Source of the DNA: Zunongwangia mangrovi
Lineage (GTDB): Bacteria; Bacteroidota; Bacteroidia; Flavobacteriales; Flavobacteriaceae
Reading direction: 5' to 3'
Assembly (NCBI RefSeq): GCF_900112105.1
Contig: NZ_FOKV01000004.1
Location: 124,001-188,000, forward strand
Length of the DNA: 64,000 bases
The notes beneath the pieces are model-generated. The model had not been told where the DNA came from. It saw only the letters and a list, made by a program, of their open reading frames with translations, and made no database searches. Below, in pieces: positions 8,841 through 9,929 of the stretch (positions are counted from its first letter, which is position 1; every line of letters starts with the position of its first letter). Position numbers and translations under genes: made by a program.

Positions 8841-9207
8841 ATGAAAAAACTACTTTTAATAGGCCTTTGTATCTTTCTTACCAGCTGTAGTGGTGATGAT
8901 CTGTATTCTGAAATTAATGGAAATTATACAGGATTTTTTTGAAAGCGGTGAGCGTCCCGGGGAAGTCAGTTTAAGTTTTATTGATGGAATTTATATCGGT
9001 GCAACTAAATTTGCAAAATTTCCGGCGATTAGTGAAGGAAACTACGTTGTAAATAATTATACAATCTCGTTCTCCAATATATGCATTTGGACCGCCGAAT
9101 TTGACTGGTCTTTGATCTTAACCGGAGACTGGAGGTTTACTTTGCAGGATAATGAAGGTATTTTAACTAATAAAATTGGAGATCGATACGTTTTAGATAA
9201 AAACTAA
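8841..9207 (+). pseudogene. Small lipoprotein gene split by a one-base frameshift in a T7 run
   Basis: The ATG at 8841 opens a lipoprotein signal (MKKLLLIGLCIFLTSC, lipobox LTSC) and reads GNYTGFF before hitting TGA just after seven T residues at 8934-8940. With six T residues the frame would continue as FFESGERPGEVSLSF and run to TAA at 9205-9207, giving a 121-aa lipoprotein. The downstream part is rich in beta-type sequence and ends GDRYVLDKN. It is either a genuine mutation, a slippage-controlled switch, or a sequencing error in the homopolymer. No family recognised. Its end overlaps the end of sigZ by 4 nt (convergent). Confidence 0.75.
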
Positions 9208-9740
9208 ATATAAAAATATTCACACAACGCGCATTTGGATTGCCCTGTTAGTCTGCCGTTAACATCTGTGTCGTATTTGCAACATTCCTTGAAGCGATTT
9301 TTCATAATAGTCTTAGAACGTCGAATTCGAGCTTTCGTATTTGCTAATGAAATACCTGCTAGTTCTGCCGCTTCCTTTTGTGGTTTACCATCAACATATA
9401 CCAATTTCATGACTTCTTGATATTCCTGTGGCAATTCATTTAAAAATTTATCGAAACAGCAAACTTCTATAAATGGATGAGAAACTTCTTCAGATTGCTG
9501 AAAATCAGTAGTGGAGACTGAAATTTTTGAATGATTAAATTGGTCGTTTATCTCATTTCGAATAATCTGAAAGGCCCAGGATTTCAATTTTCCCGGATCT
9601 TTCAGTTTATCCAAATTTTTATGGATCTTTAAAAAAGAAGCCTGTAAAATATCCATAGCAGCATCTTCATTCTTTACTCGCTTCAGAATAAAAAAATAAA
9701 ATTCCTTCTGATATTTATCCCAAACTTCCCTGGTATCCAT
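9204..9740 (-). CDS. sigZ: RNA polymerase sigma factor SigZ (ECF-type)
   Basis: A 178-aa sigma-70 family factor. Region 2 covers roughly residues 5-75 (AAMDILQASFLKIHKN, WAFQIIRNEINDQF). Region 4 lies near 105-150 with the helix-turn-helix PQKEAAELAGISLANTKARI. It ends with an unusual Cys-bearing tail, FKECCKYDTDVNGRLTGQ followed by SKCALCEY, which is the signature of the SigZ group and could bind metal or sense redox state. No separate anti-sigma gene is adjacent. Instead a 38-aa Cys-rich peptide lies 12 nt upstream on the same strand, which suggests one operon and possibly shared metal or thiol sensing. Confidence 0.9.
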   Translation of the reverse strand: MDTREVWDKYQKEFYFFILKRVKNEDAAMDILQASFLKIHKNLDKLKDPGKLKSWAFQIIRNEINDQFNHSKISVSTTDFQQSEEVSHPFIEVCCFDKFLNELPQEYQEVMKLVYVDGKPQKEAAELAGISLANTKARIRRSKTIMKNRFKECCKYDTDVNGRLTGQSKCALCEYFYI

Positions 9741-9752
9741 AACAATCTTTTT

Positions 9753-9869
9753 CTAAGCGCAACAAGAACATTTATCGCAATTGCAGGTATCGCATGGGCA
9801 ATTTGCTGCAGCGCAGTTCACGCAATTACACTTATCACATTCACATTGTGTACATTTACATTTACTCAT
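9753..9869 (-). CDS. Metallothionein-like Cys-rich peptide (38 aa, 14 Cys)
   Basis: The ATG at 9869 opens MSKCKCTQCECDKC and the frame ends at TAG 9753-9755. Of 38 residues 14 are cysteines, mostly in CxC and CxxC patterns (KCKC, CECDKCNC, CPCDTCNC) and ending CSCCA. There is no signal peptide, so it is cytoplasmic. This composition is that of a metallothionein or small zinc/copper-binding peptide; assignment to a known family is not possible by eye. It is first in an apparent two-gene operon with sigZ. A near-consensus TACATTTA box lies upstream, but without properly spaced TTG. Confidence 0.8.
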   Translation of the reverse strand: MSKCKCTQCECDKCNCVNCAAANCPCDTCNCDKCSCCA

Positions 9870-9929
9870 ATCTAAACTTTTAAATGTAGACTGTAATTGC
9901 TCTAAAAAGATACAATTTTTATTAAAAAA

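Follow-up and report, generated by a model that had tools for sequence, protein, structure and literature searches.

Bacterial metallothioneins such as SmtA and MymT are short, cytosolic, Cys-rich proteins whose thiolate ligands are arranged as CxC and CxxC. Expression of SmtA is repressed by SmtB. Mycobacteria reportedly carry polycysteine attenuator uORFs (Canestrari et al. are said to have described them in 2020), in which a short Cys-rich ORF stands upstream of the gene it regulates. MymT, like the peptide considered here, was discovered in a small ORF that annotation had missed (PMC7558416). Among regulators, the sigma factors CorE and CorE2 (ECF44 in the old classification, ECF238 in the new) sense copper or Cd/Zn through a CxC motif in the linker and a Cys-rich C-terminal domain, with no anti-sigma factor (PMC8999054). 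Our search of the literature turned up no signal or function for the sigma factor SigZ, nor any description of a peptide paired with it.

The window analyzed here, a stretch of 64,000 nucleotides from Zunongwangia mangrovi, contains an unannotated gene that encodes a peptide with the traits of bacterial metallothioneins given above, a short Cys-rich ORF that, like the mycobacterial uORFs, precedes the gene under regulation, in this case one encoding a SigZ-like ECF sigma factor (Table 1). Unlike SmtA and MymT, the peptide matches no Pfam or NCBIfam model and seems to be under the control of an ECF sigma factor of its own operon. The SigZ of the window may be CorE-like: Cys are present both in its linker and in its C-terminal extension, and it lacks an anti-sigma factor, as CorE and CorE2 do (PMC8999054). 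However, the linker motif is CC (in what we call Type I SigZ) or C (Type II) rather than CxC, the tail has the form CC...GxLxGE..CxxC, and the apparent regulon consists of one promoter. The likeness would be one of function, not an assignment by sequence to ECF44/ECF238. Compared with SigZ as modeled (TIGR02959/PRK09637), the clade of the window stands out by its peptide partner and by the tail GxLxGE..CxxC.

Table 1. Features of the peptide-sigZ locus, in coordinates of the window
Feature	Position	Strand	Remarks
Type I metallothionein-like peptide gene, 38 aa, 14 Cys	9753..9869	(-)	Homologues with invariant Cys in 25/397 family genomes; coding constraint
12-nt peptide-sigZ gap	9741..9752	(-)	Hairpin of most relatives absent here
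SigZ-like ECF sigma factor, 178 aa	9204..9740	(-)	Directly 3' of peptide in 23/25 Type I family loci, 74/75 distinct tail-bearing SigZ
Cys94-Cys95 of SigZ, sigma2-sigma4 linker	9456..9461	(-)	Invariant in Type I alignment A3
Cys153-Cys154 of SigZ, start of C-terminal Cys tail	9279..9284	(-)	Invariant
C170-x-x-C173 of SigZ tail	9222..9233	(-)	Cys170 invariant, Cys173 nearly so
-35-like element TGTATCTTTTT, peptide-sigZ promoter	9904..9914	(-)	Single genome copy at <=2 mismatches
-10-like element AGTCTAC, 15 nt after TGTATCT	9886..9892	(-)	Conserved promoter motif

The peptide gene and its relatives

The peptide, MSKCKCTQCECDKCNCVNCAAANCPCDTCNCDKCSCCA, is read from an ATG-to-stop frame, and Cys accounts for 14 of its 38 residues. 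The original prediction, made from the window alone, was of a frame with this length and Cys content lying 12 nt ahead of sigZ. Both the frame and the distance (from the peptide stop to the SigZ ATG at 9740) hold good, but so short a spacing arose within the branch to which the window belongs.

Distinct homologues number 78 and fall into two types: Type I, with about 37 amino acids and 14 Cys, and Type II, with 33-34 amino acids and 11 Cys, whose members stand ahead of a sister group of SigZ. A sample of 119 genomes yielded nine strong homologues, the window's own counted, and among 397 genomes of the same family, Type I is found in 25, representing 18 genera. Its carriers include Aequorivita, Arenibacter, Salegentibacter, Psychroflexus, a Saprospiraceae MAG, and a Capnocytophaga MAG, and it extends to another family of the class and to another class of the phylum; carriers of Type II include Winogradskyella, Polaribacter, and Mesoflavibacter. 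Weak matches to the peptide in other families (E > 0.02) have no sigma factor nearby. Another genome of the window's genus (G002) has two peptide-SigZ pairs (L006 and L015) that belong to different Type I lineages, which suggests horizontal acquisition.

Type I members, nearly all of them 36-41 amino acids long with 14 Cys, follow the pattern MxxCxCTxCxCxxCxCxxCx4CxCxxCxCxxCxCC, that is, two halves of seven Cys each joined by a linker of four residues. The positions of the Cys are fixed among homologues while their codons alternate. In 34 Type I genes, Cys codons are kept in 476 of 476 instances, a figure inflated by the choice of these genes on the basis of Cys pattern or count; the choice does not inflate the synonymous turnover, with TGT and TGC alternating (286/190). 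Mean pS in these genes is 0.84, as against a mean pN of 0.19. A chance ORF is rejected on these grounds, and the two checks proposed at the outset, of Cys spacing and of synonymous versus nonsynonymous change, both speak for strong coding constraint. The peptide gene is real and conserved.

As a small Cys-rich protein with CxC/CxxC clusters and Cys conserved in position, the peptide has the makeup of a metallothionein. Searches of Pfam and NCBIfam with the peptide and its relatives gave no match, to a metallothionein model or to any other, and a PDB search with the peptide profile matched no chain, so that no described family model covers it. By these comparisons the peptides are a previously undescribed metallothionein-like family, passed over by family-model searches.

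SigZ and its pairing with the peptide

The protein encoded next to the peptide contains Pfam sigma regions r2 and r4 and those domains only, as befits an ECF sigma factor. The NCBIfam models that match it best are SigZ models, both with scores below cut-off (127.5 bits versus 168.65 for TIGR02959; 139 versus 212 for PRK09637), which leaves it outside SigZ as so defined; a related SigZ (L235), at 168.7, reaches the TIGR02959 cut-off. An AF2 model (pTM 0.43) shows the fold usual for ECF sigma factors and predicts a small beta hairpin in the tail. The Cys-rich tail that had been pointed out at first is accompanied by a second Cys pair, in the linker between sigma2 and sigma4. It had also been remarked that no anti-sigma gene adjoins sigZ, and indeed none does in the window, where the next gene downstream is convergent. 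That gene (8841-9207, plus strand), small and lipoprotein-like, appears to be split by a frameshift, its signal peptide and lipobox being read in a different frame from the remainder.

Of 109 distinct SigZ-like proteins, 75 have the tail CC...GxLxGE..CxxC. The search proposed at the outset, for short frames upstream of related sigZ genes, shows a peptide encoded within 1 kb in 74 of these 75 cases, versus 3 of the 34 proteins without the strict motif, all three with near-miss tails. Similarly, in the 397-genome sample, the peptide is found just upstream of 23 of the 24 SigZ with E < 1e-60. The peptide-bearing SigZ occupy one side of a branch of the tree and divide there into Types I and II (the Type I row L036 is labeled T2 by mistake, owing to an internal Met). 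Peptide aside, sigZ is the sole neighbor common to all 25 loci compared, and a larger conserved operon is rejected, as no other neighbor within 10 kb recurs in all 25. The pair is, on this evidence, conserved across dozens of Bacteroidota.

The pairing has exceptions on both sides. A later search found one additional SigZ of the Type I clade with no peptide, in G001, a genome of the window's genus, and three genomes (G410, G274, and G518) retain the peptide but lack any homologue of SigZ. Upstream of the peptides in these SigZ-less genomes, no match to the promoter appeared. Since these genomes keep the peptide, it has a use of its own. In G518 (L245:6436-6553), compared with its relative G573 (L244:5984-6107), where sigZ separates the peptide from the next gene, the SigZ gene is missing, the peptide is kept, and the promoter motif is absent; G518 is thus a natural sigma deletion.

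Promoter and intergenic hairpin

The peptides are preceded by an ECF-type element, TGTATCYTTTT in Type I and TGCATCYTTTT in Type II, whose seventh base is followed 15 nt later by (A/C/G)GTCT, and the -10 mostly ends 26-30 nt ahead of the peptide ATG. The promoter is present at this fixed spacing ahead of 75 of the 78 distinct peptides, where shuffles lead one to expect 0.14. The three exceptions are L022, whose element has one mismatch to the pattern, and two peptides in SigZ-less genomes. In the window's genome, the peptide gene is the one site that matches the Type I pattern, even if two mismatches are allowed. The same is nearly always so in the 25 genomes examined, where the pattern lies at the pair only; among the few extra matches, one (in G277) lies ahead of a TonB receptor, and no clear target emerged for the rest. 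The exact Type II pattern has a single match, at the pair, in 10 of 20 genomes; the remaining 10 have no match, and in several of them the element visibly departs from the pattern. Whenever a genome has just one match to either pattern, that match nearly always falls at the peptide.

This promoter, conserved at fixed spacing and present once per genome, strongly supports the idea that SigZ targets the peptide. Autoregulation of SigZ and a very small predicted regulon are likewise well supported by the sequences, and in the window's genome, to go by motif matches, the peptide appears to be made from the only promoter that SigZ recognizes. SigZ would exemplify an ECF sigma factor whose regulon apparently comprises one promoter, and it thereby gains a concrete candidate function: making a thiolate peptide, its only evident job.

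In most relatives, the gap between peptide and sigZ is 33-50 nt long and contains a hairpin. Hairpins in gaps of at least 25 nt are more stable than those of shuffles (z about -2.3 to -8), except at L029 and L036, and many are followed by a run of T, in the manner of a terminator. Such a hairpin, placed between peptide and sigZ, suggests that more peptide is made than sigma factor. The branch of the window, with its gap of 12 nt, has lost the hairpin.

Function of the pair

Peptide and SigZ may constitute an autoregulated two-gene module of metal(loid) defense, the peptide sequestering and SigZ sensing, a reading to which we give a probability of about two in three. The small cytosolic thiolate peptide would sequester a soft metal or metalloid (of the As(III), Cd, Zn, or Cu class). 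SigZ, with no anti-sigma partner, would sense the ion through the Cys of its linker and C-terminal tail and then activate the single TGTATC/GTCT promoter ahead of the peptide, giving more peptide and more SigZ, and the peptide, in capturing metal, would complete the feedback. The terminator-like hairpin that follows the peptide gene in most relatives would keep sigma low and peptide high. The conserved peptide, the pairing, the promoter, the single-site motif, the hairpin in relatives, and the swap of effectors described below can be read from the sequences; from them we infer metal binding, direct sensing by SigZ, the feedback, and the candidate class of ion. By analogy with CorE and CorE2, SigZ is probably a metal sensor.

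In G001, which has a SigZ of the Type I clade and no peptide, the operon consists of a cation-efflux (CDF) gene and then, at once, sigZ. The efflux gene (PF01545, 41.2 bits versus a cut-off of 26.6), whose product ends in CCCD, is preceded by a copy of the promoter with one mismatch, and a divergent TonB receptor gene is preceded by an exact copy. On another contig, a further exact copy lies before a probably truncated second copy of the efflux gene. These copies of the promoter lie at L282:8229-11838 and L290:7816, and the divergent TonB receptor looks split in two frames. G277, which has a sister SigZ and also no peptide, carries the exact promoter on a TonB receptor gene. The frame is thus missing from some relatives that have SigZ, an outcome that by itself would weigh against the original prediction, but in these genomes a CDF transporter and/or a TonB receptor is found under this promoter instead.

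SigZ proteins outside the peptide clade adjoin arsM (arsenite methyltransferase) or ArsI/CadI genes at 9 of 24 loci (L235, L236, L237, L238, L239, L248, L255, L263, and L264). The arsM product scores above the cut-off of NF008823 in all four cases tested, and ArsI/CadI corresponds to NF041414. This suggests an arsenic-linked group of SigZ in Flavobacteriaceae. Neither arsM nor arsI is found in flanks of up to 10 kb at the 24 peptide-bearing loci, so what links the outgroup to arsenic may not hold for them, and the notion that these genes adjoin pairs of the window's type is rejected. Taken together, the appearance of an efflux gene or TonB receptor in place of the peptide, the arsM/ArsI neighbors, and the peptides in SigZ-less genomes favor the role of a metal(loid)-sequestering effector. 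The early proposal of a metal buffer finds indirect support in the Cys architecture, the CDF swap within the genus, and the arsM/arsI genes beside related SigZ. The metal state of the peptide may, as was also proposed, be coupled to the activity of SigZ.

Perhaps, instead, the peptide mainly regulates SigZ, as a soluble anti-sigma factor or a metal or redox switch, whether by binding SigZ or by exchanging metal with the Cys tail of SigZ, the true output of SigZ lying elsewhere. The near-obligate pairing of the peptide with a Cys-tailed SigZ, the Cys in both partners, and the missing anti-sigma gene would all fit. We nonetheless think this unlikely. Three SigZ-less genomes retain the peptide, which argues that it is not merely a regulator of SigZ; moreover, the SigZ motif is essentially confined to SigZ's own operon, the hairpins imply an excess of peptide, and an efflux pump takes the place of the peptide in G001. 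A thiol or redox role, with the peptide a sink for oxidants or electrophiles or a reserve of Cys or zinc, and with SigZ sensing thiol oxidation rather than metal, seems a shade less probable again. Oxidants also react with Cys-rich peptides and vicinal Cys pairs, and such pairs are conserved in SigZ, but the cation-efflux swap and the arsM/arsI genes beside related SigZ point to metal(loid)s. The idea of a leader peptide, in which stalling of ribosomes at Cys codons relieves a terminator and so controls sigZ, agrees with the order of short Cys-rich ORF, terminator-like hairpin, and regulated gene, but it is rejected as highly improbable: at loci of the window's branch and of f37, where the hairpin is absent or the gap measures 4-12 nt, all or nearly all of the Cys are nonetheless retained; the exact CxC/CxxC spacing bespeaks constraint at the protein level; and conserved sequence and Cys spacing, the existence of orphan peptides, and the lack of antiterminator pairing above synonymous-codon shuffles set the peptide apart from the mycobacterial uORFs.

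One might go further and regard the SigZ-family sigma factors of Bacteroidota as direct metal(loid) sensors. In one large clade, the regulon would be reduced to one promoter, producing SigZ and a new metallothionein family, while sister lineages would have swapped in other effectors: cation efflux, TonB receptor, or arsenite methylation. We see the chances of this broader reading as evenly balanced. The natural swaps of effectors could be used to find the ion that SigZ senses.

Neighbors of other kinds were seen as well. In G573, which belongs to another class, ArsR-type regulator and arsenate-reductase-like genes (L244:1-1420, recognized by eye) lie about 4 kb from the pair. A separate group of SigZ-like proteins (L085, L086, L089, L091, L093, L094, L097, L099, L240, and L262) has the tail DCPN...D..GK, and a PhzF-like gene follows several of its members.
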